Assembly: GCA_019634415.1 (NCBI GenBank)
Contig: JAHQVJ010000044.1
Span: forward strand, 1-64,000
Reading direction: 5' to 3'
Length of the DNA: 64,000 bases
Source of the DNA: Myxococcales bacterium
GTDB taxonomy: Bacteria; Myxococcota_A; UBA796; GCA-2862545
Of the stretch, positions 7,572 through 23,481 are shown piece after piece (the stretch's first letter is position 1; each line of letters starts with the position of its first letter). A program made the position numbers and the translations under genes. The notes below the pieces were generated by a model. The model searched no databases. It was not told where the DNA came from and worked only from the letters and a program-made list of their open reading frames with translations.

Positions 7572-9905
7572 ATGTCCCAGCTCGAGCTGACGCCCAACTT
7601 CGAGCCCGACGAGCTCCTCGCCTTCGTACAGTCCACCTATGGGCTGTCGGGGGCCCTAGAGGCGCTGCCGTCGGAGCGCGACCAGAACTTCCGACTCACC
7701 GTCGACGACGGCCGGCGCTTCGTGCTGAAGGTGGCCCACGGCGGGGAAGCTCCAGGCGTGATCGAGGCCCAGCACCAGGCGTTGGCTCAGATTGCCGAGT
7801 CGACGCGGGTGGTGCCGTCGGTGCTGACCACGGTCGACGGTCGGCCCACGGCCATGCTGACCTCGACCGAGGGCTTGCCGCACCTCGTACGGATCGTGTC
7901 TTGGGTGGAGGGCACTCCGCTGGCGAGTGCCCCCCATGCGGGTCTCGCCCTGGTCAACGATCTGGGTCGCTCGCTGGCGCAGCTCGACGCCGGGCTGGCG
8001 GGCTTCGATCATCCTGCGCTGCGGCGCGGCCTCGATTGGGACCTGACCGTCGGGCTGGAGGTGGTGGATCGCTATGCGCCCGCCATCGCAGACGACGAGC
8101 ACCGCAGCCAGGTGCAGGGCATGGCGCGTCGCGTGAGGCGGCAGACGTGGCCTGGGCTTCAGCGCGCGCGGCGTCAGGTGATCCACGGCGACGCCAACGA
8201 TCACAACGTGATCGTACACCCCACCGAGCCCCGAGTGGTGGGCCTCATCGACTTCGGCGACATGGTGCACAGCTGGCTGGTGGGGGACGTGGCGATCGCT
8301 GCGGCCTATGCGGTGCTCGACGCAAGCGAGCCACTGGACGTCTTGGCTGCCTTGGTGGCCGGCTACCACGAGGAGATGCCGCTGCGGGCCGACGAGCTCG
8401 ATGCCGTGTATGGCTTGATGTGTCTCCGCCTGTGTGTGAGCGCCGTGATGGCCGCCCAGCAAGCCCAGCAGCGTCCCGACGATCCGTATCTGCAGGTGAG
8501 CCAGGCACCGCTGCGCCGCACGCTGCCGAAGCTGCTCGAGCGGCCGGATGGCCTGGGCCGGCAGGCCGTTCGAGACGCAGCCGCGATCCCGTGGTCCGCT
8601 CCCGTGCTCGCAGAGACGTCCCGCGTGGCCCAGCGGCGCGAAGCCCACGTGGGTTCGAGCCTGTCGCTGGGCTACGAGCGGCCGGTGCACCTGCGCCGCG
8701 GCTTCCTTCAGTACCTGTTCGATGCCGACGGCACGCGCCTGCTCGACGCCTACAACAATGTGCCCCACGTGGGCCACTGCCACCCGGCGGTGGTGGATGC
8801 GGCGGTGGCTCAGCAGCGGCGCCTCGCCACGAACACCCGGTACCTTTGCGATGCGTTGCCCGCCTACGCCGAGGCGCTCGCGGCCACCTTCCCCGAGCCC
8901 TTGAGCGTCTGCTTCTTCCTGAACTCCGCCACCGAGGCCAACGAGCTGGCACTCCGCCTGGCCCGCGCCGCCACCGGCCAGCGCGACACCATCGTGCTCG
9001 AGGCGGGCTACCACGGGCACACCACGTCGCTGGTGGACTGCAGCCACTACAAGCACGCGGGGCCAGGGGGCCAGGGGGCCCCGGACTGGGTCGGTGTGGC
9101 CTTGCTGCCGGACCTGTACCGCGGACCGTTTCGCGCCGACGATCCCGCAGCCGCCGATCACTACGCCGCCTCCGTCTCCGACCACGTCGCGCGGATCGAT
9201 GCTGCGGGCCGCGGGGTCTGCGCCTTCCTGGCGGAGACCTGCCCGAGCGTGGGGGGGCAGCACGAGCTGCCCGCCACCTACCTGTCGCAGGTCTACGCCG
9301 CCGTGCGGGCCGCAGGGGGCGTGTGCATCGCCGACGAGGTGCAGACCGGCTTCGGCCGCCTGGGCGACGTCTTCTACGCCTTCGAGCACCACGGCGTGGT
9401 CCCCGACATCGTGGTCCTCGGCAAGCCCATCGGCAACGGCCACCCGCTGGCCGCTGTGGTCACCCGCCCCGAGATCGCGAGGGCCTTCGACAACGGCATG
9501 GAGTTCTTCAGCACCTTCGGGGGCAACACCGTGTCGTGTGAGGTGGGGCTCGCGGTGCTCGAGGTGCTGCGCACAGAGGGGCTACAGGCCCACGCCCAGG
9601 CGGTGGGAGCGCAGCTGCTGGGCGGCTTGGCCGAGCTGGCCGAGCGCTACCCGGCCATCGGAGACGTGCGTGGTCGCGGGCTGTTCCTGGGGGTCGAGCT
9701 CGTCGCTGACCGAGAGGCTCGCACCCCCGACGCGGCCCGAGCGGCGGCGGTGAGCAACGCGCTGCGGCGGGCGCAGATCCTGATCGGCACCGACGGACCG
9801 GATCACAACGTGCTGAAGATCCGGCCCCCCATGCCCTTCGACAAGACGGACGCGGCGCTGCTCCTCACCGCCCTCGACGAAGCGATGGCAGCTACTCGAT
9901 CGTGA
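7572..9905 (+). CDS. Bifunctional APH-type kinase fused to class III aminotransferase-fold PLP enzyme
   Basis: A 777-residue fusion. Residues 1 to about 310 form an aminoglycoside/choline-kinase (APH) fold with the catalytic loop VIHGDANDHNVIV and the metal motif LIDFGDMVH. Residues about 355 to 777 form a class III aminotransferase fold with NNVPHVGHCHPAVV, NSATEANELALR, the PLP aspartate in CIADEVQTGFGR and the PLP lysine in GKPIGNGHP (about Lys618). The GKPxGNGHP form is typical of ethanolamine-phosphate and phosphohydroxylysine phospho-lyases. Hence the kinase half may phosphorylate an amino alcohol and the other half eliminate phosphate and ammonia. Some homologous fusions carry an M23 peptidase domain between the halves; none is visible here. 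The last 14 bases overlap the convergent lipoprotein gene. Confidence 0.87.
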   Translation: MSQLELTPNFEPDELLAFVQSTYGLSGALEALPSERDQNFRLTVDDGRRFVLKVAHGGEAPGVIEAQHQALAQIAESTRVVPSVLTTVDGRPTAMLTSTEGLPHLVRIVSWVEGTPLASAPHAGLALVNDLGRSLAQLDAGLAGFDHPALRRGLDWDLTVGLEVVDRYAPAIADDEHRSQVQGMARRVRRQTWPGLQRARRQVIHGDANDHNVIVHPTEPRVVGLIDFGDMVHSWLVGDVAIAAAYAVLDASEPLDVLAALVAGYHEEMPLRADELDAVYGLMCLRLCVSAVMAAQQAQQRPDDPYLQVSQAPLRRTLPKLLERPDGLGRQAVRDAAAIPWSAPVLAETSRVAQRREAHVGSSLSLGYERPVHLRRGFLQYLFDADGTRLLDAYNNVPHVGHCHPAVVDAAVAQQRRLATNTRYLCDALPAYAEALAATFPEPLSVCFFLNSATEANELALRLARAATGQRDTIVLEAGYHGHTTSLVDCSHYKHAGPGGQGAPDWVGVALLPDLYRGPFRADDPAAADHYAASVSDHVARIDAAGRGVCAFLAETCPSVGGQHELPATYLSQVYAAVRAAGGVCIADEVQTGFGRLGDVFYAFEHHGVVPDIVVLGKPIGNGHPLAAVVTRPEIARAFDNGMEFFSTFGGNTVSCEVGLAVLEVLRTEGLQAHAQAVGAQLLGGLAELAERYPAIGDVRGRGLFLGVELVADREARTPDAARAAAVSNALRRAQILIGTDGPDHNVLKIRPPMPFDKTDAALLLTALDEAMAATRS

Positions 9906-11250
9906 CGGGGTAGGCCCGGGTGGAGCCGTTGAACCCGAAGCCCCCTTGCCCTGGACAGCTGGCCTTCAGGCTGAAGTCCGCCACGTCGGCGCCGTCGCGG
10001 AAGGCATAGACGTCGCGGGTGTTGGCGCAGGTGGCCAGCACTCCTCCCTCGATGGGCATCGCGCCCCCCTGGTTCGGACAGGCCCGGTCCACGGACCAGG
10101 AGTCGTCCTCCGACAGGGTGCCGGTGGACTCGTCGATGGACATCCGCAAGGCACGGGGGTCGCTCTGGCTGCGATTGTCGAACACCCACAGCTGTCCGTC
10201 GTGCAGCGAGGCGTTGTGTTGGCGCTGGAACAGCGTGCCCTGTGCCGGAACGTAGTCGGGATCTGGCAGATCGTTGGCGCCACCAGGATCGCCGGCGGCG
10301 TGCCACAGCAGGTCCAGGAAGGTCGGCGAGTCGGGATCTCCGTCCACCACCACCACGCCGTCGAAGGCGAACACCGACACCACCACCTCGCCCTCCTCCG
10401 ACACGGACAGGCCGTTGACGTGGGCAACGCCCAGGTTGTCGACGGAGTCGAAGTCGTCGCTCAGCAGGTAGGTGCCCCGGTGGGTGGTGCCCTCCCAGAC
10501 CTCGAAGCCGCCGATGCCGCTCGCCTCGCCGAGCAGGTAGGTGTAGGGACCCCAGCGCCCCACGTCGTGGGTCAGGCGCAGCGAGAAGTGGGTGTCGGCC
10601 TCCAAGGTGAGCGCCTCGTTCCCGAGCAGATCGGTCTCCACGAGGGCCGAGGGCCCCGTGCCCATCACCGAGCCGCGAACGGCCAGCACGCTGCGATCGG
10701 CCTGCGACCACATCATGCCGTCGGAGATCCCGTCGTAGACGTCGGTGGGAGCCCCCCACACGATGTCGCCGTCGCCATCCACCATGATGAACCAGCCGCA
10801 GGAGACGTAGACCATCACGGCGTCGGTGCCGAACAGCTCCCCCGAGGTGGTGATCTGCACCGTCTGCAGTACCTGTGGCAGCTCGCCCGTGGTGACCGTG
10901 CCGCTGGCGCCAGCGACCTCCCAGCCGTAGTCGGTGTCGGCCTTCAGCCCCCAGCCCGTCAGCTCGTGCGCCAGGCCCGGGCGGCTGCTGTGGAAGGTTC
11001 GGACGGGAGCTCCCTCGGCCGTCAGCGTCAGCGTGGCGTCGCCCTCGGAGGTCAGCTCCACGTCGCACAGAACCACCAGCGGGTTGCTGCCGCTGCGGCG
11101 GCACGAGGCCGTGCCCTCGGGGAGCGGTGGGGTCTGCCCCGTCTCCTCGGTGGGCGCGGGCGGCGTGGGCGTGTCGATGGCGGGATCGTCTCCGGCGACG
11201 GGCTGTCCGGGCACGCAGGCGGCAAGGGCTAGGAGGAGCGTGCAGCGCAT
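9892..11250 (-). CDS. Arylsulfotransferase (ASST)-like lipoprotein
   Basis: A 452-residue lipoprotein: the signal MRCTLLLALAAC ends in a LAAC lipobox, followed by a Pro/Thr/Glu linker to about residue 45. A fibronectin-like segment (residues about 60-125) precedes a propeller-like domain containing THDVGRWGPYTYLLGE, then AHVNGLSVSEEGEVVVS and QHNASLHDGQLWVFDNR. These His-containing blocks resemble the arylsulfotransferase family, whose propellers use a transient phospho- or sulfo-His. Whether it is an active sulfotransferase cannot be decided here. The N-terminal lipid anchor places it at the envelope. It is convergent with the fusion gene (14-base overlap of stops) and divergent from the M14 carboxypeptidase with a 58-base gap. 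Confidence 0.72.
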   Translation of the reverse strand: MRCTLLLALAACVPGQPVAGDDPAIDTPTPPAPTEETGQTPPLPEGTASCRRSGSNPLVVLCDVELTSEGDATLTLTAEGAPVRTFHSSRPGLAHELTGWGLKADTDYGWEVAGASGTVTTGELPQVLQTVQITTSGELFGTDAVMVYVSCGWFIMVDGDGDIVWGAPTDVYDGISDGMMWSQADRSVLAVRGSVMGTGPSALVETDLLGNEALTLEADTHFSLRLTHDVGRWGPYTYLLGEASGIGGFEVWEGTTHRGTYLLSDDFDSVDNLGVAHVNGLSVSEEGEVVVSVFAFDGVVVVDGDPDSPTFLDLLWHAAGDPGGANDLPDPDYVPAQGTLFQRQHNASLHDGQLWVFDNRSQSDPRALRMSIDESTGTLSEDDSWSVDRACPNQGGAMPIEGGVLATCANTRDVYAFRDGADVADFSLKASCPGQGGFGFNGSTRAYPVTIE

Positions 11251-11308
11251 CGTGGATCCTTGGCTTCGCGTGGAATGCAGGTGTATCTATGCCTTGCATG
11301 GGGCCTGC

Positions 11309-12766
11309 ATGATCGTCTTGGGGATGAACGTCGCGATGGCTTCGACGTCGCAGGTGCGCATCCACACCCCAGGCGCCACCGACCTGGCCCAGGATCTGGC
11401 TCGGCAGGGCTTCGACGTGGTGGAGGGCTCGGAGCAGGGCGACACCGTGGACCTGGTGGTCGGTGCGTCGGAGCGCGAACAGCTGGACCGGATGGGTCTG
11501 GATCTGCGAGACGTGCGGCAGGGTCGCCCCCTCGTGCAGCGCCCGCTCGGCTACCCCTCGGGCGACGCCATCGAGCGACGGCTGCGCGGTGTGGCAGAGG
11601 CGCATCCGCACGTCGTCCGCCTGGTGGACCTCACCCAGGCCTACGGCCCCTCGGCCACCGAGGAGGGCCGGCCGCTGTGGGCCGTGGTGATCTCGGATCG
11701 CGTGGAGCAGGACGAAGGAGAGCCAGCGGTGCAGCTGCTCGGGGGGCTGCACGCGCGGGAGGTCGTCACACCCCTGGTGGTGCTGCACGCCGTCGACCAG
11801 CTGGTGCAGGGCTACGGGCGGGATCCCGAGATCACGCGGCTGGTGGACGACCACGAGCTGTGGGCCGCGCCCGTCTTCAACCCCGATGGCTACGCGTACG
11901 TGTTCGAGCACGACGATCTGTGGCGGAAGAACCGACGGGTCTTCGACGAGGGCGTGGGGGTGGATCTGAACCGCAACTACGACTTCGAGTGGCGCGGTGG
12001 CTGTCCTGGAAGCGGACGGGTGACCGCCAGCACATACCGTGGGCCGCAGGCCGAGTCCGAGCGGGAGACGCAGGTGCAGGTGGCATGGTCCGCCGATCGT
12101 CGCTTCGCCAAGGTGCTGGAGTTCCACTCCTTCGGCGAGAAGGTGCTGTGGGGCTACAGCTGCTCACCGCATCCCTTCGACACCTTCCTGCAGGAGGAGG
12201 CCAGCCGCCTGGCGGTGGCCTTTGGCTGGGAGCAGGACGCCACGCGCCCTCCGAGCGCGGAGGGGGAGCACTACGAGTGGCAGCTCGCGGCGGGGGCGCA
12301 CGCGATGCTGGTGGAGACGGCCTCGCAGTTCCAGCCACCGGCCCACGAGGCGCAGGAGGTGGCGGAGTCCCTTTGGCCGGGGATCCTTGCCTTCTTGCTC
12401 CGTCCCATCTCGGTGCACGGCACGGTGACCGACGCGATCACCGGTGGCCCCGTGGTCGCCCGTGCCGAGCTTCCGAAGGCACTGTTCCTGAGGGGGGAAG
12501 CCCAGCACACCACGGGTCCGTGGGGGCGCTTCCACCACACACTGCCGCCCGGGGAGCACCGGCTGCGCTTCTCTGCACCAGGCTACGTCGAGATCGAGCA
12601 CGAGGTGGAGGTGTCGCTGGGATCGCAGACCGTGCTCGACGTCGTGCTGCATCCCGACACCCGTGGTCTGAGCTGCGCTGTGTCGCCCCTGGGCACCGCC
12701 ATCCCCACGGGTGCGATCGGGGGCATGCTCGGGCTGCTGGTGGGGAGGCGTCGTCGGCGCGGATAG
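11309..12766 (+). CDS. M14 zinc carboxypeptidase with CarboxypepD_reg domain and MYXO-CTERM-like tail
   Basis: A 485-residue secreted metallopeptidase. A short signal (MIVLGMNVAMA) precedes a propeptide-like region. The M14 domain shows the zinc motif GGLHAREVVTP (HxxE), the substrate-binding Arg in VDLNRNYDF, the third zinc His in LEFHSFGE and the catalytic Glu in MLVETASQ. A carboxypeptidase-regulatory beta domain (about 370-450, starting ISVHGTVTDAITGG) follows. The C-terminus has a Cys, a short hydrophobic run and GRRRRRG, matching the MYXO-CTERM sorting pattern of Myxococcota, which implies processing and cell-surface attachment. The start at 11309 is preferred because it makes the signal peptide; 11324 is possible. 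Confidence 0.88.
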   Translation: MIVLGMNVAMASTSQVRIHTPGATDLAQDLARQGFDVVEGSEQGDTVDLVVGASEREQLDRMGLDLRDVRQGRPLVQRPLGYPSGDAIERRLRGVAEAHPHVVRLVDLTQAYGPSATEEGRPLWAVVISDRVEQDEGEPAVQLLGGLHAREVVTPLVVLHAVDQLVQGYGRDPEITRLVDDHELWAAPVFNPDGYAYVFEHDDLWRKNRRVFDEGVGVDLNRNYDFEWRGGCPGSGRVTASTYRGPQAESERETQVQVAWSADRRFAKVLEFHSFGEKVLWGYSCSPHPFDTFLQEEASRLAVAFGWEQDATRPPSAEGEHYEWQLAAGAHAMLVETASQFQPPAHEAQEVAESLWPGILAFLLRPISVHGTVTDAITGGPVVARAELPKALFLRGEAQHTTGPWGRFHHTLPPGEHRLRFSAPGYVEIEHEVEVSLGSQTVLDVVLHPDTRGLSCAVSPLGTAIPTGAIGGMLGLLVGRRRRRG

Positions 12767-12778
12767 GGGGGGCGAACC

Positions 12779-13186
12779 ATGGGCTACCGATTCGACACGA
12801 CCGTGCGGTTCTCGCAGGTGGACGGGGCCTCGATCCTGTACTTCAGCCGCGCACACGAGATCTGCCACGAGGCCTTCGAGGCGTTCCTGGCGCACCTGGG
12901 TCAGCCCCTGCACGACCGCATTTCGACGGGGGAGTGGATGCTGCCCATCGTGCATGCGGAGGTCGACTTCGCCTCGCCCATGCGGCTCGGGGATCGGCTG
13001 ACGGTGGAGGTGGCCGTGCAGCGCTACGGGACCACCTCCGTCACGGTCCGCTTTCGGCTCTTCGGGGAGGACGGGGCGCTTCGTGCCGTCGCCCGCCACG
13101 TACACGTTGCAGTGCGCACGGGCACCATGCAGCCGATTCCGCTGCCACGACCCGTGCGCGAGTGGGGGGTCGCCGATGACGGGTAG
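12779..13186 (+). CDS. Hotdog-fold acyl-CoA thioesterase (4HBT family)
   Basis: A 135-residue single hotdog domain. The N-terminal signature TVRFSQVDGASILYFSRAHE corresponds to the 4-hydroxybenzoyl-CoA/YbgC thioesterase motif, with Asp in VDGAS as the likely catalytic residue and the helix HEICHEAFEAFL behind it. The central strand DFASPMRLGDRLTVEVAVQ is typical. It should hydrolyse an acyl-CoA in the cytosol; the substrate is unknown. The ATG at 12779 lies 12 bases after the upstream stop, and its 3-prime end overlaps the GH57 start by 11 bases. Confidence 0.85.
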   Translation: MGYRFDTTVRFSQVDGASILYFSRAHEICHEAFEAFLAHLGQPLHDRISTGEWMLPIVHAEVDFASPMRLGDRLTVEVAVQRYGTTSVTVRFRLFGEDGALRAVARHVHVAVRTGTMQPIPLPRPVREWGVADDG

Positions 13187-14861
13187 CTTCTGCCTGGTGC
13201 TTCACGGGCACCTTCCCTGGGTGCTGCATCACGGGCGCTGGCCCCATGGCGAGGACTGGCTGTTCGAGGCAGCGGCCGAGACGTGGCTACCACTGCTCGA
13301 GGTGCTCGACGCTTGCCGCGAGGAGGGGCTGCGGCCCGCCTGGACGCTGGGGCTCACCCCGGTGCTCCTCGAGCAGCTGGCGTCGGACCGGTTCCGGCAG
13401 GGTCTGGTGGACTGGCTGCAGATGCAGCGGCGGCGCGGCAAGGACGACGAGGCGCGCTTCCACGGTGAGGGGCAGCTGCACCTGGCGTACCTGGCGTCTC
13501 GCTGGCAGGAGCGGTTCGCTCGGCTGCTGGCGCGCTTCGAGGCAGCCGGCAGGGACCTGGCTACGGCCTTCGTGCAGGCCGAAGACGACGGGCTCGTGGA
13601 GCTCATGACCTCCAATGCCACCCACGGCTACCACCCCCTGCTCTTGAGCGACGCCTGTGCGCGCGCCCAGATGCGAGCGGGCCTGGCCACCTCCGAGCGG
13701 CACCTGGGCCGGCGGCCGCGGGGGATGTGGCTGCCGGAGTGCGCCTATCGGCCCCCGGGGGACTTCTGGCCGCCCGCGCTGCACGGACTGCCCCGATCGG
13801 TGCAGGGCGTGGGCTCCATCGTGGCGGCAGAGGGCATTCGCTACCTGGTGCTCGACGCGGCGCTGCTCGCGGGGAGTCGGCCCATGGCTGCGCTGGCGGA
13901 CGGCCGGGCCCATGCGGTGGGCGACGACCAGACCAGCTGGGATGCGCGTCGAGGGTGGGGGAGCGCGCTGGAGCCCCATCGGGTGGTGGAGGACGGGCGG
14001 TTGCTCGACCTGACGGTGCTGGGGCGCAACCCCGGCGTCAGCGAGCAGGTCTGGAGCGGAGCCGTGGGCTACCCCGGCGACCCCCGCTACCTGGAGTTCC
14101 ACAAACGCCACGGCGTGCGCGGCCTGCAGTATTGGCGCGTGACGGGGGAGGGCGTGGATCTGGGCGACAAGCAGCCCTACCACCCCGACGACGTGGCGGA
14201 GCCGCTGTACCAGCATGCGGCGCACTTCGTGCAGACGGTGGCCGACCAGCTGCAGCACCACGCGGCGCAGACGGGTCGAGCCGGGGTGGTGTGTGCGCCC
14301 TTCGATGCCGAGCTGTTCGGGCACTGGTGGCACGAGGGGCCGACCTTCCTGCTGGAGGTCGCCCGTCGCGTGCATCACGACGATCGTGTGGAGGCGTGCA
14401 CGCTGGGACAGGCCCTCGAGCACACTCCGGCCGACAAGGGCGTGGGGCTGCCCGAGGGCTCGTGGGGCGCGGGAGGCGACCATCGGGTCTGGGTCAACGA
14501 CTCCCTCCGCTTCTACTGGGAGGTGGCCTACCGAGCCGAGGAACGCTTCTTGGATCTGTGGCACCGTGCGGACTGGCAAGGCGACGCCGACGTGCGGGAG
14601 CTGCTGACGGAGGCAGGACGCCAGCTCCTGCTGCTCCAGGCATCGGACTGGCCCTTCGTCATCTCCACCGGTGGCGCCACCGACTACGGGATCCGGCGGA
14701 TCTTCCACCACGCCGCACTGTTCGACGACCTGTGCAATGGCGTGGAGGACGCCGTCGGCGGATCGGACGGTCCGCGGGATCCGGTGGTGGCCGATGCGCT
14801 TCGCACGAGCCGCAGTCGCGATCCGGTGTTCGCCGATCTCGATCTGTCGTGGTGGGCGTGA
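13176..14861 (+). CDS. GH57 1,4-alpha-glucan branching enzyme-like protein
   Basis: A 561-residue GH57 protein of the branching-enzyme type. Motif 1 is LVLHGHLPWV (residues 7-16), the nucleophile motif is GMWLPECAYRP with Glu188, the acid/base motif is PFDAELFGHWWHEG with Asp377, and the C-terminal helical domain contains LQASDWPFVISTG near residue 490, all typical of GH57 branching enzymes with a DUF1957-like module. It would introduce alpha-1,6 branches into glycogen. The ATG at 13176 lies 11 bases inside the thioesterase gene; the GalT-like gene follows with a GTGA overlap. With the first GH57 enzyme and the ROK kinase it suggests glycogen turnover. Confidence 0.87.
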   Translation: MTGSFCLVLHGHLPWVLHHGRWPHGEDWLFEAAAETWLPLLEVLDACREEGLRPAWTLGLTPVLLEQLASDRFRQGLVDWLQMQRRRGKDDEARFHGEGQLHLAYLASRWQERFARLLARFEAAGRDLATAFVQAEDDGLVELMTSNATHGYHPLLLSDACARAQMRAGLATSERHLGRRPRGMWLPECAYRPPGDFWPPALHGLPRSVQGVGSIVAAEGIRYLVLDAALLAGSRPMAALADGRAHAVGDDQTSWDARRGWGSALEPHRVVEDGRLLDLTVLGRNPGVSEQVWSGAVGYPGDPRYLEFHKRHGVRGLQYWRVTGEGVDLGDKQPYHPDDVAEPLYQHAAHFVQTVADQLQHHAAQTGRAGVVCAPFDAELFGHWWHEGPTFLLEVARRVHHDDRVEACTLGQALEHTPADKGVGLPEGSWGAGGDHRVWVNDSLRFYWEVAYRAEERFLDLWHRADWQGDADVRELLTEAGRQLLLLQASDWPFVISTGGATDYGIRRIFHHAALFDDLCNGVEDAVGGSDGPRDPVVADALRTSRSRDPVFADLDLSWWA

Positions 14862-15841
14862 GCCGGGCCGTTCGCCAGGATCCGCTCACGGGCGAGCACG
14901 TGATCCTCGCCTCTGTCCGGGCCACGCCGCGCGGCAGGACGGAGCGGCCGGAGCGTTCCTCCACGGACTGTCCGTTCTGTCCTGGCAACGAGGCGGCCAC
15001 GGCGGCGACCATCCAGCAGGTGGATCGGGACGGCCGCTGGGGCGCCCGCGCCTTCGCGAATCGATCGCCGGGGCTCGTGGTGGAGGAGCCCCACGAGCGC
15101 CACGTGCACGGCATGTTCCACGCCCTGTCGGGCTTCGGCGCCCACGAGGTGCTGGTGGAGTCGCCGGAGCACGACGCGCTGCACCGGCAGCCCGTGCACC
15201 GCATGGCAGCGGCGCTGGAGCTCGCTCGAGCGCGGGTGTCGGATCTGCAGCGCGACGAGCGCCTGCAGGCCCTGTGCTGGTTTCGCAACCACGGGTCGCT
15301 GGCCGGAGCCAGCCAGCCGCATCCCCACGCCCAAGTGATGGGGCTGCCCTTCGTGCCCGAGCGTTGGCAGCGGTACGTTCGGCACAGCCAGGCGCACTGG
15401 CAGCACACGCGCCACACGCTGCTCTCTGCGGTGCGACACGACGAGATCGAGGACGGCAGCCGCGTGGTGGGCGGGCACGGCCCGGTGGTGGCGCTGTGCC
15501 CCTTTGCGTCGTCGCAGCCCTTCGAGGTGTGGCTGCTGGCGGAGGAGCCCGGACCCACGCTGGCGTCCTGGACGGACGCCGAGCTCGACGGTGTGGCACA
15601 CCTGACCACGCGCTGCCTGCGGGCCATCGAGGCCGCCGTGGGGGGCCCCGTGGACTACACCGCCACCGTGCTCGGCGCGCCATCCGTCGGCGACGTGGAG
15701 GGGGTGGGGTGGCACCTTCGCATCGTGCCGCGTCTGGTGCGCTACGGGGGGCTGTTCGTGGGCATGCACGCGCCGATGCACGGGGTGTTCCCGGAGCACG
15801 CCGCGACGGCGCTGCGCGCCGCCCTCGCTGCCGCCGAGTGA
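14858..15841 (+). CDS. Galactose-1-phosphate uridylyltransferase-like (GalT/HIT superfamily) nucleotidyltransferase
   Basis: A 327-residue member of the GalT branch of the HIT superfamily. A zinc-binding motif CPFCPGNE lies at about residues 37-44, the substrate-site stretch FANRSPGLV near 63, and the catalytic triad motif QPHPHAQVMG near 151-160, where the His between Pro residues forms the nucleotidyl intermediate. The start is a GTG overlapping the upstream TGA. Family members move UMP or ADP/AMP between sugar phosphates (GalT, or ADP-glucose phosphorylase type). Coupling to a branching enzyme favours a role at glucose-1-phosphate or ADP-glucose, but substrate choice is inference. Confidence 0.82.
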   Translation: MSRAVRQDPLTGEHVILASVRATPRGRTERPERSSTDCPFCPGNEAATAATIQQVDRDGRWGARAFANRSPGLVVEEPHERHVHGMFHALSGFGAHEVLVESPEHDALHRQPVHRMAAALELARARVSDLQRDERLQALCWFRNHGSLAGASQPHPHAQVMGLPFVPERWQRYVRHSQAHWQHTRHTLLSAVRHDEIEDGSRVVGGHGPVVALCPFASSQPFEVWLLAEEPGPTLASWTDAELDGVAHLTTRCLRAIEAAVGGPVDYTATVLGAPSVGDVEGVGWHLRIVPRLVRYGGLFVGMHAPMHGVFPEHAATALRAALAAAE

Positions 15842-15889
15842 GGGCGTTCCTCCGCAACACGGGCGAATGCTGCTAGAACGCTGCTCGTC

Positions 15890-16771
15890 GTGTTCTGTCC
15901 GTACCATCCAGAGGTGTCCGCCGAGCTCGAGGTCCCCGGCGATCGACGAGACGTGGCGTGGATCGGCTGGCTGCATGCCTGCTGCCACCTGCCGGTGTGG
16001 CGCTGCGGGCAGGGGGTGCTGCACCCCATCGAGGCCCGATTCTGCACGGCCCACGGATGTCGACGGCCAGCGCGCGACCAGGTGGTCCACGAGGCGCTGC
16101 CGTCCCAGGGGGCGCCTGCCGCCGTGGCGCAGGCCCTAGCGCATCCGCCGTCGTCGGACGGCCGCTCCACACCGGCCGTGGCGGGCAACGTGTTGGCCTA
16201 CCTCACCGATGCCGGAGCGGTGGTGGCGGTGGACTTCGGCCGCCGCAGCGACGCCCAGGAGCCCCTCGTGCTGATGTCCGGAGTGCGCGCTGCGTCGCTG
16301 CAGGTGCGGCGTGGCCTGGTGGTGGGGGCCATCCTCACCCACACGGGGTTCCGGTACGTCGGCTACGACATCCGGCAGCTCCGCGACACGCTGCGACGCG
16401 GGCTGTCGGCTCCCGAGCCCTTGGCCGTGGACGAGCGATGGGTGCACCTGCGCACGCTGCCGGAGGGGCGGGCCCGGGTCAGCCACGGGCGGGGCGCTCT
16501 GAGGCTGGTGGTGGAGCACGATCCGGTCCAGGGAAAGGCCGCTCGCATCTATCGTGGGCTGGTGGGCGAAGATCCTGGGCCCTTCCTGGTGCGTCGCTCT
16601 GCAGGGACCCGGGATGCCCAGCGCTTCGTCGCTCATCGCCCGTTGCGATTGCTCCAGGTCCCCGTGCCCGTTCCCGGTGGGACCTTCCTGCTGGGGCGCG
16701 TGAGGTGGTGTGGCGCGGTGTCGCGGGGGGCCGTCCTCCTGCCCACCCTAGGCGAGTCGGCCCGTGGCTGA
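15890..16771 (+). CDS. Protein of unknown function with N-terminal Cys/His cluster; first gene of the Hsp70-like trio
   Basis: A 293-residue protein of unrecognised family. Residues 1-60 carry FCPYHPE, HACCHLPVWRCGQG and ARFCTAHGCRRP, a Cys/His-rich pattern that resembles a degenerate double zinc ribbon (WxCxxG in place of WxCxxC). The rest is beta-rich, with segments such as VLAYLTDAGAVVAVDFGRR and RGLVVGAILTHTGFRYVGYD, and a late strand pair near the C-terminus (LLQVPVPVPGGTFLLGRVRW). No signal or membrane segment is visible. The GTG start at 15890 is preceded by TGCTAGAAC (15871-15879), a possible -10 element so close that the message may be leaderless. Its 3-prime end overlaps the next gene by eight bases. 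Zinc binding is inferred. Confidence 0.72.
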   Translation: MFCPYHPEVSAELEVPGDRRDVAWIGWLHACCHLPVWRCGQGVLHPIEARFCTAHGCRRPARDQVVHEALPSQGAPAAVAQALAHPPSSDGRSTPAVAGNVLAYLTDAGAVVAVDFGRRSDAQEPLVLMSGVRAASLQVRRGLVVGAILTHTGFRYVGYDIRQLRDTLRRGLSAPEPLAVDERWVHLRTLPEGRARVSHGRGALRLVVEHDPVQGKAARIYRGLVGEDPGPFLVRRSAGTRDAQRFVAHRPLRLLQVPVPVPGGTFLLGRVRWCGAVSRGAVLLPTLGESARG

Positions 16772-19100
16772 GCCGGTGTCGGGCGTGCTCGCGGTGGGAC
16801 ACGCGGGAGAGGAGTCCAGCTCCCGCGTGCTGGTACCCCAGCCGTGGCCCCACCGCGTGCCCCTCGTGTGGACCGGGTCTCCCGGAGACGAGCTGCCCCT
16901 CCTGACGGCTGCGCGATGGTCCCATGCGCTGGTGGTGGGGCACGTCGATGATCCGTTGTTGGTGCGGGTCCTCCGGCGGATCAGCGCTCAGGGGACCAGC
17001 GTGTCGGTGTTGCTGGGAGGTGAGCCCCAGCAGGTTCATCCCGGTCATGCACACGCCACCCACGCCGTGGTGGCAGACCTGGTGCGACGAGACGCGGTGC
17101 AGGGCGTGTGGACGCATCCCCGCCCGGGCGAGGTGCTGGAGCTGGTCCTCGAGATCGCGTCTGCGCACCCCGCCCATCGCGTGCCCTCGGCGGATCGGGT
17201 CGATCTGGGGCCGCTCCTGTCGCTGCGGCAGACCTGGTGCAAGCCTGCGGCACCTGTCCACTTTCGCGAGATCGTGGGCGTTCGGCTCGGGCGGGCCGAG
17301 ATGCTGCCCTGGGTGGCTGCCTGGGTGTGCGTCCACGACGTAGTCGGTGCCCTCGTGGCCATGCACTCGGCTCCGCCGTCGTCGGATCCGGGTCCGCCCA
17401 CGCCTCTTCCCGCCCATCGCACCGTGGCGGCCGTGGGGGAGCGGCTGCGTCGCGCGCTGGGTGCCCTGGTGTTGCAGGGCGGCGACCCCCTGGTGGACCA
17501 GATCGCCGAGCTGATTCAGCCCATCCTCGACGAGGTGCAGGCCATGCGGACCACGTGCTCCCAGGTGGAGCGGTCTCGCATGGCGCGCCTGGGCTTGTTC
17601 GACGCCGTGGGGATCACCGGCACCGTGCGACGGCTGCGGCGTCTTCAGGCGGCAGTGGCCGCCGAGACCGGCGCGAGAAGTGCCGGGATCCTCGCGCACC
17701 TGGTGGCGGGCACATCCGAGTCGGATGGCTCCGCGGGCTCGGTGCCCTTCACCGCCTGGCGTCAGGCGTTCGCAGGCCTCGCGAGCGACGGGCGTGCGCT
17801 GGCTGCGGCACGAGATCCGGTGGTGCTCACGGCGCTCACCGAGCAGGTGGCGGTGTTTCGTCGGGACTTCCCGGCGGCGGTGCAGCGCCACCTGGAGGTG
17901 GTGTGGGGGCGTGCCCACGACCCCGACGCCGCGCCCGATCCTGCGCTGGTGGCGTCGCTGGTGTCGCGCGCCGATGCCGTCGAGGTCGCGCTGCGCAGCA
18001 CGCTGGATCGCTGGGCGGAGCACGCGAGGCGGCTGGCCGACGACGTGCTGGGGGAGGACCGGCTGGTGCAGTGGGTGGCCGGTGACGCCCAGACGCTGGT
18101 GGCCTTGCTGAGGCAGGGAATCGCCGCCGATGCCGTTCACGGCGCTCGCGATCGCGCGCTGTCCGCCCTCAAGGAGATCCGAGGCCCGGAGGACGTCGAC
18201 GAAGCCGTCGCCGAGCTGCGGCAGGTCGCCGACGAGCTGGCCCGCGCGTTCGTCCACGATGATCTGCTGGAGGGCCTCGTGCGTGGGTGCGACGCCACCG
18301 GCCTGCGAGATGCGCTGGTGGGCGGAGGAGATGCCGTGGTGCTCCGGGTGGCGCAGCCGCTGTCGCAGCCCCTGGTGGCGTGGCTTCGGGCTGGGGGCAT
18401 CGAGGTTCGCGTGGCGTCGACCCAGTTCACGGCGGCCGAGCAGCTCTCGGATGCGCTTGCCTGGGTGCAGCGGCAAGCCGCGCATGCACCCTCGAGGGCA
18501 GGCCATCGGAATCGATCCGCAGCCACCGAGCATCAGCTGGCCGATCTGGCCCTGCCCGATGCCGCCGGGCAGTCGGCCGACGACCTCGCCGCCGTGGTGC
18601 TGGCCGCGGAGTGCCTGCTGGCGGGGCTGGTGTTGGGGCTCGTGCAGGCTCGTTCAGCCTCGTCCGAGGCATCCCACACGCCCGAGCACGGGGTCTGGGA
18701 GCTGCAGGGTCTCGAGGTGGGGTGGCGAGGAGCTGTCTTGCTCCCCCACGATGGGATCCACCTGCTCGCCACCGAGCCCTCCGTGCGCTCCCGCCTCGAG
18801 CAGCGCGTGTCCACGGCGATCGACGGGCTCTGCAGACACCCTGAGGGTCCGAGGATGGCGGAGCGCCTCGTGGAGCTGGCGGCCCTCGGTCCAGGTCCGC
18901 GCCTGGCAGCCGAGATCGGCCTCGATGCGCCTGTCTACGTGCAGCTCCAGCGCCCGCTGCAGGATCGGCTCAAGACCCTCGCGGACCGGGCTGTGGCGTC
19001 GCTGGTGGACTGTACCCACTCGTCTCGACTGCGTCGGATCAGTCGCGCACCGACCCGCTGGCGCTCCGACTCCCTGGCCGACCTGTGCGAGGCGTCGTGA
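16764..19100 (+). CDS. Large helical protein of unknown function; middle gene of the Hsp70-like trio
   Basis: A 778-residue cytosolic protein that I do not recognise. The N-terminal 150 residues look like a small alpha/beta fold (SHALVVGHVDDPLLVRVLRR then SVSVLLGGE). From about 220 onward it is mainly long amphipathic helices rich in Ala, Leu, Arg and Asp (for example MRTTCSQVERSRMARLGLFD, AVEVALRSTLDRWAEHARRL, AVAELRQVADELARAF), suggesting a helical bundle or scaffold. No Walker A, transmembrane segment or signal peptide is seen. It starts with GTG eight bases before the upstream stop and its TGA overlaps the GTG of the next gene, so three genes are strictly coupled. The size and pairing recall the SrfC/SrfB pairs of other bacteria, but no motif proves this. 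Confidence 0.75.
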   Translation: MAEPVSGVLAVGHAGEESSSRVLVPQPWPHRVPLVWTGSPGDELPLLTAARWSHALVVGHVDDPLLVRVLRRISAQGTSVSVLLGGEPQQVHPGHAHATHAVVADLVRRDAVQGVWTHPRPGEVLELVLEIASAHPAHRVPSADRVDLGPLLSLRQTWCKPAAPVHFREIVGVRLGRAEMLPWVAAWVCVHDVVGALVAMHSAPPSSDPGPPTPLPAHRTVAAVGERLRRALGALVLQGGDPLVDQIAELIQPILDEVQAMRTTCSQVERSRMARLGLFDAVGITGTVRRLRRLQAAVAAETGARSAGILAHLVAGTSESDGSAGSVPFTAWRQAFAGLASDGRALAAARDPVVLTALTEQVAVFRRDFPAAVQRHLEVVWGRAHDPDAAPDPALVASLVSRADAVEVALRSTLDRWAEHARRLADDVLGEDRLVQWVAGDAQTLVALLRQGIAADAVHGARDRALSALKEIRGPEDVDEAVAELRQVADELARAFVHDDLLEGLVRGCDATGLRDALVGGGDAVVLRVAQPLSQPLVAWLRAGGIEVRVASTQFTAAEQLSDALAWVQRQAAHAPSRAGHRNRSAATEHQLADLALPDAAGQSADDLAAVVLAAECLLAGLVLGLVQARSASSEASHTPEHGVWELQGLEVGWRGAVLLPHDGIHLLATEPSVRSRLEQRVSTAIDGLCRHPEGPRMAERLVELAALGPGPRLAAEIGLDAPVYVQLQRPLQDRLKTLADRAVASLVDCTHSSRLRRISRAPTRWRSDSLADLCEAS

Positions 19101-21850
19101 GCGGGCCACGGTGGGCGCGCACCCTGTCGGATCGCTTCGATCCGCAGCAGGGGTGTGCGCTGACGGTGGCGCGGATGTGGCCGCCGCGTCTGATGGTGCA
19201 CGAGGTGCAGGCGCGCACCTCCGACGCCGCTCGCGTATCCGTCTCGGCCTCGGTGTGGATCACCCATCGACTCGACCGTGCCCTCGAGGTCACGCTGTCT
19301 GCGGCGACCGCGGAGCCGGTGGACGCCGAGGGGAAGCCCGTGGAGGGCCTCACCGTGGGCAGGGCCACGGCCGTGGTGGAGGGAGCCGAGACCAGCGAGC
19401 CCTCCGGAGGACGGCTGTCGTTGCCCTTGTCGTGGACGGACGTGGTCGCTGCGCGGCTCCGAGCGCAGCCCTGGGTACGTGCCGGTGTGGACGTGGCGCT
19501 GTTCGACGGTGAGATCCGGCGGGCGTATCGCACGTTTCTGTACCTGACGGCCGGGCCGCCCGCGTTCCCGCAGCGAGGGGTCCGTCGCGGCGAGTGGTCG
19601 GACACGAACCAAGGGTGGCTCTTCTTGCCGGAGGGCTCGGAGCCGGCCTGCTGGCTGCAGCCGTCGGCCGAGGCCAGGGATCTCGTGCTCACTGTGCCCA
19701 CGGAGCCCGACGACACGAGCGCGGTGACGCTGGACGGATGCATGGGCTCTGCCGGCCTGCCCTCGGCGCGGGTGGTGGCGTTGACTACGGAGGGTGAGGT
19801 CGCCCACTGGGATGCGTCGGACGGGCGTCGGGTCACGGCGCCGCCCGACGTCGAGGTGGAGCGGCGTACTGCTCCGGTGCTGCGTCTCGCTGAAGACGTG
19901 TCGGTGGTGCTCCGCCCTGCCGCCGAGGGCAGCCAGGAGGCCGCGCCGCAGTGGGTCGATCTGCCGCTTCGCCTCGAGGCGGCAGAGGAGTCGCTCTGGG
20001 AGGGGGTGGCGTTGGAGGTGCTGCACGCCGAGCTTCGAGGACCTGAGTCGGACGTGCTCGGGACGTTCGAGGGGACCTCCGCTCGGGTGGCCGATTCCGT
20101 GGTGCGGCTGCCGCTGCAGATGCGGTCCGTGGCGGATGGGCAGACTCGAGGATCCGCTCGGCTCCACGTCGTCGCACGACCTGTGGTCTGGGGAGCACAG
20201 CTGTCGTCGGAGCGATCCCTGGAGGTGTCGGACGAGGTGTCCTGGACGACGGGACCGTTGCCTCCCGACGACTCGGCCCTATGGCTCGTGATCGACGTCG
20301 GGGGCCGGTTCTGTCGTGCTGCGGTGGCGTGGCACGGTGAAGAGGGCCCGCACGTCGAGGTGGTGCCCCTCGGAGTGGGGGGCAGCATGTCCGCCGCGCT
20401 GCGGTGGTCCGAGCTGTCCTACGCGTCATCGGACGACGACGTCGAGGTGGAGCGGGTGCTCGAGGGCCTTCGGCTGGGCGACGGAGCGCACCCGGAGTGT
20501 CCAGGCCCCGTGGCTGCGACGGAGGTGGCGCGGGAGCTGTTCAAGCGCGTGCTCCTCACCGTGCGGGAGCGCGCGGCATGGCTTCCCCTGCGTCGAGCGG
20601 ATCTGTTGATCACGGTGCCCGCCAGGCTCACCACGCTGCCGCGCTGCGTTCGCGCGCTGTCCGATCTGTGGGACAGCGTGGCCACCGAGGTGTTGTGGGG
20701 CGGCGCTGTGCGGCGAGTGCGCTTCGTCCAGTCCGGGGTGGCCAATGCCGTCGCCCTACTGCGTCAGCTGGACGAGGCGAGCGGGCCTCGGGAACTCCAC
20801 CTGGTGCACTGCGGTGCGAGCAGCGTGGATGCCTGTCGGTTGTGGGTGCCCACCGGCGAGGCGTCGGCGCGGCCCTCCGCCGAGCTACGGTCCCTGGGCA
20901 GGCTCGCACCCCACGTCAGCGGTGCGGACATCACGGATGTGGTGGAGCACTGGCTGAAGGAGGCATTGCCGGATCACCGGGCGGCGTTGCTGCGGTCGGC
21001 GGCGCGGTCCATCAAGGAGGCGGCCAGCCGTGAGCCGGAGCTGTGTGTGGGGGGCGCGGCGCCGAAGGTGTCCCTGCCCGACGAGCTGGCGCGACGGACC
21101 GTTCAGGAGGCCTTGCAGCTGGCCCTGAGCCTGGAGGTGCCGGCGCCAGCGTCCACCGAGGAGGACCAACGAGAGGACTGGGAGCGCTGGATGTTCCCGC
21201 GGCCCGTGTCGAGACGTTCCGTCCCAGCTGGAGGGGTCGCCGCCCTCCTCCGGCGGATGGGGGAGGAGCTGGGCGCCTGGCTCGCAGGCGGGGACTCGGC
21301 CCACGAGCGCATCGTCGCCTTCGCGGGCGGTGCGCGGGCCCTGCCCCTCGTGGGCGACCACCTCGCGCGATGCAGGCCACGAGGATCACAGCAGGTGCAG
21401 CTCCGGGAGCCGGCGACCGCCACGGTGCGGGGGGCTGCGTGGATGGCGCTCGACGTCGACGAGCCGGGCGTGTTGCCCGCACGGGTGCCCGCGACCGCGC
21501 CCCAGGAGCTCGACGTTCGCGTGGCCACCCGTGGTGGCTCGTTCTCCATCGCGACCCTGCTGGACGGGCGTCCAGGTGCCTCCGTCCCATGCGATGCCGT
21601 GACCGAGGAGCCATCCTGGCGAGGTCCGGTGCGTCTCGTGGTCCCTGGCCTGTCGGAGGACGCTGCGTGGGAGCCGTGGGTCGTGGTGGCCGAGGAGCGT
21701 GGGGGAGGGCGTAAACCCGCGAAGGGGGCTCGGCCCACGCGCCTCGAGACGCAGGCCGATGCCTTCTTGCTTCACCTCGACGGTGGAGACGAGCCGATTC
21801 GATTCGATCGCCTGCTGGCGAGTTTGCCTTGGCTGGGAGAGGAGCGGTGA
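19097..21850 (+). CDS. Diverged Hsp70/actin-fold ATPase-like protein (SrfB-like?)
   Basis: A 917-residue protein. Residues 1 to about 390 are beta-rich and unrecognised. From about 392 an Hsp70/actin-type ATPase core can be followed: phosphate-1-like ALWLVIDVGGRFCRAAVAW, a helical segment with RADLLITVPARL, phosphate-2-like ELHLVHCGASSVDACRLWV near 567-585 in which the usual DxGGGT is eroded to HCGASS, a helical run AALLRSAARSIKEAAS near 633, and the adenosine motif IVAFAGGARALPLVGDHLA near 738 followed by RGAAWMALD. Order and spacing match Hsp70-like proteins. The C-terminal 90 residues are beta-rich and may bind substrate or partner. The GTG start overlaps the upstream stop (GTGA). Chaperone, cytoskeletal and SrfB-type roles are all possible. 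Confidence 0.75.
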   Translation: MSGPRWARTLSDRFDPQQGCALTVARMWPPRLMVHEVQARTSDAARVSVSASVWITHRLDRALEVTLSAATAEPVDAEGKPVEGLTVGRATAVVEGAETSEPSGGRLSLPLSWTDVVAARLRAQPWVRAGVDVALFDGEIRRAYRTFLYLTAGPPAFPQRGVRRGEWSDTNQGWLFLPEGSEPACWLQPSAEARDLVLTVPTEPDDTSAVTLDGCMGSAGLPSARVVALTTEGEVAHWDASDGRRVTAPPDVEVERRTAPVLRLAEDVSVVLRPAAEGSQEAAPQWVDLPLRLEAAEESLWEGVALEVLHAELRGPESDVLGTFEGTSARVADSVVRLPLQMRSVADGQTRGSARLHVVARPVVWGAQLSSERSLEVSDEVSWTTGPLPPDDSALWLVIDVGGRFCRAAVAWHGEEGPHVEVVPLGVGGSMSAALRWSELSYASSDDDVEVERVLEGLRLGDGAHPECPGPVAATEVARELFKRVLLTVRERAAWLPLRRADLLITVPARLTTLPRCVRALSDLWDSVATEVLWGGAVRRVRFVQSGVANAVALLRQLDEASGPRELHLVHCGASSVDACRLWVPTGEASARPSAELRSLGRLAPHVSGADITDVVEHWLKEALPDHRAALLRSAARSIKEAASREPELCVGGAAPKVSLPDELARRTVQEALQLALSLEVPAPASTEEDQREDWERWMFPRPVSRRSVPAGGVAALLRRMGEELGAWLAGGDSAHERIVAFAGGARALPLVGDHLARCRPRGSQQVQLREPATATVRGAAWMALDVDEPGVLPARVPATAPQELDVRVATRGGSFSIATLLDGRPGASVPCDAVTEEPSWRGPVRLVVPGLSEDAAWEPWVVVAEERGGGRKPAKGARPTRLETQADAFLLHLDGGDEPIRFDRLLASLPWLGEER

Positions 21851-21900
21851 AGTAGCTGGGATAAAGTGTTGGTGTGACCGATAGCGGGATTCCCTAATGC

Positions 21901-21923
21901 CCCATTCGGTCGCAACCGATGGG
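21901..21923 (+). terminator. Hairpin downstream of the Hsp70-like operon, possible terminator
   Basis: CCCATTCGGT and ACCGATGGG can pair around a CGCA loop, with one bulged base. It lies 50 bases after the operon end and before the receiver gene. There is no U-tract, so factor-independent termination is doubtful; it may instead be a leader structure of the next gene. Confidence 0.3.
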
Positions 21924-21958
21924 TACCTCGTCGGCATCGGCAACGGTTGAGGAGCAGC

Positions 21959-22324
21959 ATGCCCAAGATTCTCTTGGTGGAAGACAACGAGATGAACCGC
22001 GACATGCTGTCGCGCCGCCTGCGACGACGGGGGTACGAGGTGGACGTGGCCGTGGACGGCGGAGAAGCCGTCGACATGGCCCGCACGATGCCGGATCTGA
22101 TGCTGCTGGACATGAGCCTGCCGGTCATGGACGGATGGGCTGTGGCCACGCGGCTGAAGGGCGACGACGAGACGCGCCGGATCCCCATCATCGCGCTCAC
22201 CGCCCACGCCATGGTGGGCGACAAGGAAAAGGCGCTGGCGGCGGGCTGCGACGACTACGAGACCAAGCCCATCGACTTCCCACGGCTGCTCGACAAGATC
22301 AACGAGCTGATCGCTCCCAACTGA
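21959..22324 (+). CDS. Single-domain response regulator (DivK-like receiver)
   Basis: A 121-residue stand-alone receiver domain. Acidic pocket residues Glu8-Asp9 are in LLVEDNEMNRD, the phosphoacceptor is Asp51 in MLLDMSLPVMDG, the switch Thr is in IIALTAHAM and the conserved Lys is in YETKPIDF. The NEMNRDMLSRRL helix and LTAHAMVGDKEKALAAGCDDY block match DivK-type receivers, which relay phosphate or act by binding partner kinases. The ATG at 21959 is preferred: GAGGAG lies five bases upstream. An in-frame TTG at 21947 is less likely. No kinase gene is adjacent, so its partner must lie elsewhere. Confidence 0.92.
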   Translation: MPKILLVEDNEMNRDMLSRRLRRRGYEVDVAVDGGEAVDMARTMPDLMLLDMSLPVMDGWAVATRLKGDDETRRIPIIALTAHAMVGDKEKALAAGCDDYETKPIDFPRLLDKINELIAPN

Positions 22325-22401
22325 CCGGCGAAGCCGAGGGTCCACGCGAGTCGTCGTGCCCCGGAGGCGGGCGGGATTTCCGGTGCATCCACTGCGGATA
22401 C

Positions 22402-22416
22402 GCCGGTGACACCGGC
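22402..22416 (+). terminator. Short GC-rich hairpin after the receiver gene
   Basis: GCCGGT-GAC-ACCGGC is a perfect six-base-pair stem 78 bases after the receiver stop. It is followed by TTACTGG, not a U-tract. It may end the receiver transcript or be chance in GC-rich DNA. Confidence 0.28.
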
Positions 22417-22473
22417 TTACTGGCGTTCCTCTGGTCTCGCGTGTAGGCTGTCTGGACATCTGGGAGGCCGGGG

Positions 22474-23481
22474 ATGCTAGGAGCCCTTCCGCCTGTGTTC
22501 GCGGGGCTCGAGTCACAAGACACGCAGGAAGCAGCAGGCTTCCTACAGCACGTTGGCCTGGAGCCAGGCGAGCTGGTGATGGAGAAGGGGGAGGAAGACC
22601 TCACCCTGGCCTTCGTGTCGTCTGGCGCGCTCCAGCTGATGGACGGCGACGCCCACATCGGCTCTGTCGGTGCGCGCGAGATGGTGGGTGAGGTGGAGCT
22701 GTTCGGGCAGATGCGTCGCGTCGCCACGGCGGTGGCCTCTGGGGCCGTCCACCTGGCCGTGCTGGACTACGACTCCTACGTCGAGTTGTGCAACCGTGGC
22801 AATCCTGCGGTGTACAACCTGGAGCGCCATGCGCTTCGTCGGCTCGGAGAGCGCCTCCGCTGGATGGACGAAGGCATCATGGAGCGGAGCCGGGGCATCG
22901 AGTTCGAGGTGCCACAGCAGCGCAGCGGCGGGCTGTTGTCTCGACTGTTCAAGGGCGGAGCCCCGAAGGTCGAGGTCGACGACGTGCTGTCGTCGTCTCC
23001 GCTGTTCGACTGGGCCGATCCTGGCGTCGTCTCTGCCATCGCCCAGCACTTCGAGGTGCAGCGGTTCCCCGAGGGACACCTGCTGTGCCAGCAGGGTCAG
23101 GTCGCCGACCGCATGCACATCATCGCATCGGGCCGCGTGGACGTGGTGCTGCTCACCAGCCCTCGAACTGCGGAGATGGTGGCCACGCTCGGGCCTGGGC
23201 AGGCCTGTGGGGAAGCCATGATGGCTCAGCAGACGCCGCGCAGCGCGAGCTACGTGTGCCGCGAGGAGGTCGTGACCGTCAGCCTGGAGCGGGCACCCTT
23301 CACGCACCTGTTCTCCACCAACGACGGCACGGGCTCCACCTTCCGCCAGGGCATCCTGCGCAACGTGATCGCGCTGCTGCTGGCCACCCAGCGTCGCTTC
23401 ACCGAGGTGGAGACCCACTCGTCCGTGCGCACGGAGGACACCCTGCGGGGGACCCCCGTGAACACCGTGTGGCGGGACTAG
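22474..23481 (+). CDS. Protein with two cyclic nucleotide-binding (CAP_ED) domains
   Basis: A 335-residue protein with tandem cNMP-binding-type beta barrels. The first (about 20-120) includes LAFVSSGALQLMDGD and GAREMVGEVELFGQ; the second (about 175-290) includes MHIIASGRVDVVLL and GPGQACGEAMMAQQTPRSAS, where GEAMM and RSA correspond to the phosphate-binding cassette. The first domain lacks a clear cassette Arg-Ser pair and may not bind ligand. No DNA-binding helix-turn-helix follows, so it is not a CRP-type transcription factor; it probably senses a second messenger and acts through protein contacts. GGGAGG lies about seven bases before the ATG. Confidence 0.85.
   Translation: MLGALPPVFAGLESQDTQEAAGFLQHVGLEPGELVMEKGEEDLTLAFVSSGALQLMDGDAHIGSVGAREMVGEVELFGQMRRVATAVASGAVHLAVLDYDSYVELCNRGNPAVYNLERHALRRLGERLRWMDEGIMERSRGIEFEVPQQRSGGLLSRLFKGGAPKVEVDDVLSSSPLFDWADPGVVSAIAQHFEVQRFPEGHLLCQQGQVADRMHIIASGRVDVVLLTSPRTAEMVATLGPGQACGEAMMAQQTPRSASYVCREEVVTVSLERAPFTHLFSTNDGTGSTFRQGILRNVIALLLATQRRFTEVETHSSVRTEDTLRGTPVNTVWRD

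Follow-up and report, generated by a model that had tools for sequence, protein, structure and literature searches.

A candidate Hsp70-fold scaffold with replaced catalytic residues in an overlapping three-gene cluster of a Myxococcales bacterium

The window analysed here, 64,000 nucleotides of a Myxococcales bacterium (GenBank assembly GCA_019634415.1, contig JAHQVJ010000044.1, positions 1 to 64,000 of the forward strand), carries three overlapping genes, the trio, of which the third encodes a protein (protein 3) with a predicted Hsp70/actin-type fold in residues 393-790. Our preferred, though tentative, explanation is that protein 3 does not hydrolyse ATP but serves as an Hsp70-fold scaffold, joining the products of genes 1 and 2 to itself in one complex, since this reading covers most simply the intact reading frames, the preserved overlaps, the loss of catalytic residues and the retention of a family signature. 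The usual view of an Hsp70 is that of a chaperone driven by ATP; if the explanation is true, this family, whose intact members house a zinc-ribbon/GYF module in the nucleotide-binding lobe, would provide an example, rare among bacteria, of an Hsp70 fold put to use as a scaffold, the catalytic residues of one member being lost while its operon stays open.

An earlier note on this DNA had placed an Hsp70-order core behind about 390 unrelated residues of protein 3, and profile comparison bore this out. When hhalign was run against Hsp70 profiles, the core of the protein 3 family reached 98.1% and the window core alone 81.6%, while reversed and shuffled controls gave at most 1.1%. The motifs of protein 3 follow one another as LVIDVGG (397-403), GLRLGDGAHPECP (457-469), HCGASSVD (571-578), AFAGGARALPLV (741-752) and VRGAAWMAL (777-785), and after this last, connect-2, segment, where Hsp70s have their C-terminal peptide-binding domain, only about 127 residues remain, beta-rich in a low-confidence AlphaFold2 (AF2) model. 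The phosphate-1 and adenosine motifs were recognisable as the earlier note had described them, with Asp400 and Gly402 kept and AFAGGARALPLV aligned to its DnaK counterpart (Table 1).

Relatives of protein 3 were sought among 5.8 billion proteins. Searches were made with protein 3, with protein 2 and with a five-row profile of the protein 3 family, and in each the 7,992-7,996 candidates sharing most words with the query were scored. The protein 3 search, with 7,995 candidates scored, returned protein 3 itself and four relatives (P0002-P0005) of 1,190-1,246 amino acids (aa), 29-31% identical to it, which from their tag, lgn, were taken for proteins of metagenome assemblies; the profile search returned the same five proteins. 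At about 30% identity, the relatives share the architecture of protein 3 apart from an insert, and the signature GLRxGDGAHPxCP is common to all, offering a handle for finding further members of the family. They differ from protein 3 in their intact catalytic motifs and in 191-205 extra residues.

In the catalytic motifs protein 3 departs from these relatives, which keep ID(L/H)GTEGT, the Lys of IKLGLR, the Glu-Glu of FREEA and DFGGGTTD. The counterparts in protein 3 read IDVGGRFC, VLEGLR, FVQSG and HCGASSVD, and the erosion of the phosphate-2 motif, reported earlier from the window alone, is thus seen against all four relatives. The replacements are K455L, E545Q/E546S, D571H and GGGT to GASS, so that Asp400 and the loop's first Gly are all that protein 3 retains of the Hsp70 catalytic set. 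Positions 455, 545/546 and 571 presumably correspond to Lys71, Glu175 and Asp199 of Hsc70, matched by eye; the hhalign alignment has a gap near the Lys. Because the relatives keep the catalytic motifs and protein 3 does not, the active site of the family, of Hsp70 type, is to all appearance intact, and protein 3 is the family's degenerate member. As it has lost not only the glycines but also the relatives' Lys (455), Glu-Glu (545-546) and Asp (571), protein 3 is unlikely to be an ATPase, and the label of ATPase that it had been given earlier is probably wrong. Protein 3 might instead still turn over ATP through an active site of unusual make-up, since it retains Asp400, Gly402, Asp578 and the GG motif of adenosine type, but with the Lys, the Glu and the phosphate-2 Asp of the relatives all replaced this seems improbable.

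The trio itself bears the marks of real genes. Genes 1 and 2 overlap by 8 bases and genes 2 and 3 by 4, as noted before, and the coordinates of the open reading frames (ORFs) and the codon scores agree on this arrangement; all three genes start with GTG. When codon usage was scored after training on 12 window genes and six genes from other loci of the same genome, the trio frames ranked first of six in all 19 sub-windows (three in gene 1, seven in gene 2, where sub-windows were of 300 bases, and nine in gene 3), and on this ground shadow or spurious ORFs were rejected. The score per codon was 0.14-0.20 in the trio, lower than in galT (0.25), which lay outside the training set, and than in the GH57 gene (0.26) and the cyclic-nucleotide-binding (cNMP) gene (0.31), both inside it. 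Phe, Tyr, Met, Ile, Asn and Lys (F/Y/M/I/N/K) together made up 4.2-6.8% of the trio proteins, below 29 of the 30 other scored rows of the window, the thirtieth being a wrongly framed ORF (11260-12766) where the real gene spans 10934-12766. The four relatives of protein 3, at 9.2-12.4%, also lie above the trio, and the low share would fit evolution that is rapid or driven by GC content.

Weak codon signal and low F/Y/M/I/N/K share would also suit decay, in which the trio is what remains of a once intact ATPase system, open but functionless and drifting to loss, as would the eroded catalytic motifs, the lost insert of about 200 residues and the absence of genes 2 and 3 from the other 57 related genomes. 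However, three long frames run without stop or frameshift across 5.9 kb with their overlaps preserved, the coding signal holds throughout the sub-windows, and the signature is kept at 11 of 12 columns. Frames, overlaps and signature should be among the first things to break under random decay, and we consider decay unlikely.

Several observations weigh against the scaffold explanation or the fold assignment beneath it. Across the alignment protein 3 keeps 166 of the 456 columns that are invariant in the relatives, and of such columns the Glu and phosphate-2 regions keep 7 of 30, the remainder of the core 55 of 129 (Fisher p 0.06); the catalytic erosion is thus only marginally specific, and rapid divergence of the whole protein could account for it. 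With single Hsp70 sequences as the target, the hhalign values were at most 6.2% for the window core and 6.2-87.8% for the family core. The Pfam model HSP70 (PF00012) was matched neither by protein 3 (whole at E<=1, pieces at E<=10) nor by the four relatives (E<=10). The best 50 Foldseek rows held no Hsp70 by description, beta-sandwich proteins predominating, and the VIA Z-values were below 8, a level that the tool itself calls common. The evidence for the Hsp70/actin fold comes from profiles; both AF2 models were poor (predicted local distance difference test, pLDDT, 42.0 and 35.8). Finally, the roles proposed for proteins 1 and 2 are based on weak features judged by eye.

A further difference between protein 3 and its relatives lies between residues 624 and 712, where protein 3 has 88 residues and the relatives have 279-293 (191-205 extra). 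The relatives' insert comprises a Cys4 zinc-ribbon-like segment and a GYF-like segment (Zn_ribbon_4 E 0.0017 and GYF_2 E 0.18, both below cut-off), and this module is absent from protein 3, which has a gap in the alignment and no Pfam match in its pieces. Out of 377 genomes of the phylum the full-length family profile matched 156, counting that of the window, and among the matches listed all those outside the window locus fell at model positions 758-973, that is, in the insert.

In the genome of the window, two tandem genes at another locus (L080, 213-2195 and 2232-3875) encode proteins with a zinc ribbon, GYF-like and hydrophobic segments recognised by eye, and Pro-rich linkers. The insert matched the second of them (2232-3875). 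Pfam recorded the zinc ribbons of the pair, one over and one under its cut-off, and listed GYF_2 for neither. The likeness is thus to the insert of the relatives; the L080 products stand as proteins of their own and, by eye, have a hydrophobic segment, and protein 3 is without the module. We take the pairing of zinc ribbon and GYF to be that of the gliding protein GltJ; literature searches did not find this pairing.

In the proposed complex the core of protein 3 would have little or no affinity for nucleotide and hold one fixed conformation, while its beta-sandwich N-terminus and the signature would serve as docking surfaces. Protein 2, helical and with a hydrophobic stretch, would bind protein 3 and carry it to a membrane or to another partner. 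Recognition, or an adaptor role, would fall to protein 1 with its Cys/His head and beta-rich body, replacing in trans what the built-in zinc-ribbon/GYF module of the relatives may do in cis. A wider proposal, that the family represents an undescribed system in which an ATP-driven Hsp70-type switch has a zinc-ribbon/GYF adaptor inside its nucleotide-binding lobe, and which in the window lineage became a pseudo-ATPase scaffold with a separate zinc-ribbon-headed adaptor and a helical executor, is at present doubtful.

Protein 1 opens with Cys at residues 3, 31, 32, 39, 52 and 57 and His at 6, 29, 33, 45 and 55. The zinc-ribbon-like head reported earlier was visible by eye as this Cys/His pattern, but no Pfam model matched residues 1-87 up to E 10, and it thus stands as a pattern and not as a recognised domain. 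The beta-rich body may be a beta-propeller. For protein 2, the protein search found only the protein itself among the best candidates scored. Hydropathy gave no part of the trio rich in transmembrane segments and a single hydrophobic stretch, residues 609-627 of protein 2, which is possibly a membrane-bound or buried helix. Protein 2 contains GHAGEESSS, resembling a worn Walker A motif, and was considered as a degenerate P-loop GTPase; this was rejected, as in a comparison with a G-domain profile genes 1 and 2 gave only 0.1-0.3%, within the range of shuffles. The profile was built from five Escherichia coli domains, and in leave-one-out controls the left-out true GTPases gave 98.8-99.8%. No P-loop was seen by eye in gene 1.

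Table 1. Features of the trio and its immediate flanks (window positions; residue numbers are those of the encoded protein)
Feature	Position	Strand	Remarks
Gene 1	15890..16771	+	293 aa; Cys/His-rich head then beta-rich body
Gene 1, degenerate zinc-ribbon-like head (residues 1-60)	15890..16069	+	judged by eye
Gene 2	16764..19100	+	778 aa; mostly helical (by eye); from ORF list and codon score
Gene 2, strongly hydrophobic stretch (residues 609-627)	18588..18644	+	Kyte-Doolittle 2.46
Gene 3	19097..21850	+	917 aa (GTG 19097); 921 aa from GTG 19085; predicted architecture: beta-sandwich region, then degenerate Hsp70-fold core, then beta region at the C-terminus
Gene 3, predicted tandem beta-sandwich (Ig/FNIII/macroglobulin-like), residues 1-392	19097..20272	+	family-specific
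Gene 3, predicted Hsp70-fold nucleotide-binding-domain-like core, residues 393-790	20273..21466	+	
Phosphate-1 motif WLVIDVGGRFCRAAV, residues 396-410	20282..20326	+	Asp400, Gly402 kept; relatives' threonines lost
Site of Lys in relatives' IKLGLR, residue 455	20459..20461	+	K to L
Family signature GLRxGDGAHPxCP, residues 457-469	20465..20503	+	11/12 relative-invariant columns kept
Site of Glu pair in relatives' FREEA, residues 545-546	20729..20734	+	EE to QS
Phosphate-2 motif HCGASSVD, residues 571-578	20807..20830	+	DFGGGTTD in 4/4 relatives
Site of relatives' insert, residues 625-712	20969..21232	+	
Adenosine-type motif region with AFAGGARALPLV (741-752)	21299..21376	+	aligned to DnaK LVGGSTRIPLV
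Gene 3, C-terminal beta region, residues 791-917	21467..21847	+	with LSEDAAWEPWV (852-862)
galT (galactose-1-phosphate uridylyltransferase), upstream flank	14858..15841	+	PF01087 E 6.1e-12
CheY-like response regulator (ATG 21959), downstream flank	21947..22324	+	PF00072 E 2.5e-25

The trio lies between galT, which from its GTG at 14858 overlaps the GH57 gene by 4 bases, and the response regulator gene. In G001, a genome of the same genus that is 80% complete, the GH57 gene (72% identical) is followed after about 270 bases by the response regulator (84%) and the cNMP gene (69%). G005, a genome of the same family, has the order GH57, cNMP gene and peptidyl-prolyl isomerase (PPIase) gene, and G008 has GH57 and galT, after which the contig ends. 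At these three loci tblastn gave no match to the trio genes. The simplest reading, based on this gene order, is that the trio is a lineage-specific insertion between galT and the response regulator; the alternative is a loss of the trio in G001 instead of an insertion in the window lineage. Since GH57 and galT are also paired in G008, the pair would seem to be older than the trio.

GC content was 0.70-0.73 across the trio and about 0.65-0.73 around it, no tRNA was found in the window, and no sigma-70-like promoter matched at 14600-22600.

The GH57 and galT genes were found adjoining at 13176-15841 of the window and at 2023-4664 of locus L076 in a relative of the same family, and no galT was found in G001, at its 80% completeness. 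The gene at 22474-23481 of the window, with two cyclic-nucleotide-binding domains, stands after the CheY-like regulator and before the PPIase gene, and such a cNMP gene recurs with the regulator or the PPIase gene in G001, G005 and G012. Further upstream, at 7572-9905, an APH-type phosphotransferase domain is fused to a class-III aminotransferase.

Across related genomes the trio was confined to its own. Among 58 genomes, protein 3 was found in one and protein 2 in one, in both cases that of the window. The profile of the gene 3 core, gene 1 and gene 2 each matched one of 377 genomes, and a profile of the gene 3 N-terminal region one of 255, again the same genome every time. The candidates scored per genome were two for the full-length profile, seven for the core profile, two for gene 2 and six for gene 1 and for the N-terminal profile. 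With the full-length profile the zinc-ribbon/GYF proteins could have masked a match to the core, a gap that the core profile closes; for genes 1 and 2 such small numbers may have let strongly diverged copies escape. Two pattern scans of GTDB contigs, with 132 and 126 matches to the pattern, gave no relative, and a scan of viral contigs with the core profile 20 pattern matches and no relative. A phage or plasmid origin was rejected, P0003 having no match in plasmids or phages, gene 2 none in plasmids and the core profile none in the viral contigs, and the window having no tRNA. A trio-like neighbourhood beside three other Hsp70-type genes of the same genome was likewise rejected, as tblastn found no match to the trio genes there at E<=0.1.

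Family databases were similarly silent. Pfam and NCBIfam gave no match for the three proteins at E<=1, nor did Pfam for their pieces at E<=10, and PADLOC matched none of them. PHROGs gave none for proteins 1 and 3, and for protein 2 one match to a PHROG of unknown function (E 0.39). Sequences of the PDB gave none for protein 3 (E<=1), for protein 1 or residues 1-180 of protein 2 (E<=10), or for a profile of the insert-free alignment. The earlier remark that protein 1 and the N-terminus of protein 3 fit no known family thus agrees with the silence of Pfam, NCBIfam, PHROGs and PADLOC at E<=1, and going by family scans and literature searches only, the protein 3 family is undescribed.

With regard to known systems, protein 3 resembles the DnaK/Hsp70 nucleotide-binding domain (PF00012) in its profile match and in the order of phosphate-1, phosphate-2, an SGxD/GGDD-type segment, adenosine and connect-2. 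It is unlike Hsp70 in having no PF00012 match, in the beta-sandwich of about 390 residues in front and the roughly 127 residues behind the core, and in its replaced catalytic residues; the relatives are unlike Hsp70 in their zinc-ribbon/GYF-like insert.

SrfB and SrfC combine a large Hsp70-type protein with a large helical partner, and the earlier note had been reminded of such a pair. A SrfA-SrfB-SrfC-like operon would share with the trio three genes, one Hsp70-type core and one large helical protein. However, no Pfam model of the SrfB or SrfC type (PF07520, and PF10139 as the SrfC-type model) was matched by the window proteins (whole at E<=1, pieces at E<=10) or by the relatives (E<=10). Kinship with SrfB/SrfC was thus rejected, the resemblance found no support, and a Srf-like operon is very improbable. 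A search of the 58 genomes with PF07520 gave no match, but neither did its 14 controls.

A closer parallel is found among GTPase-centric conflict systems. In Kaur et al. 2020 (PMC7159879), neighbourhoods are described in which a GTPase bears N-terminal zinc ribbons and GAP1 is typically encoded downstream, together with a fast-evolving FNIII protein; an HSP70 theme occurs in about 14% of GAP1-N2 neighbourhoods, and paired-GYF proteins occur in neighbourhoods of this type in planctomycetes (PMC7159879). The trio could accordingly be viewed as a far-diverged GAP1-N2 system, with a zinc-ribbon gene 1, a GAP1-like gene 2 and an FNIII-HSP70 fusion in gene 3, acting by assembly against invaders, the same kinds of parts in a similar order being suggested in it. 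This is unlikely too, and rather more so than decay, as the trio has no GTPase (genes 1 and 2 remaining at 0.1-0.3% against the G-domain profile), no hit to a Pfam model by gene 1 or gene 2, whether taken whole or cut into pieces, and by hydropathy no transmembrane-rich part, only the one hydrophobic stretch in gene 2. The likeness would lie in a single type of neighbourhood that combines a zinc-ribbon protein and a large partner with putative FNIII repeats and with HSP70 and GYF components; the trio differs in having no GTPase, no recognisable GAP1, and beta-sandwich and Hsp70-type parts in one chain. By analogy, the GAP1-N2 GTPase-centric type (PMC7159879) would thus be the nearest described system found for the trio.

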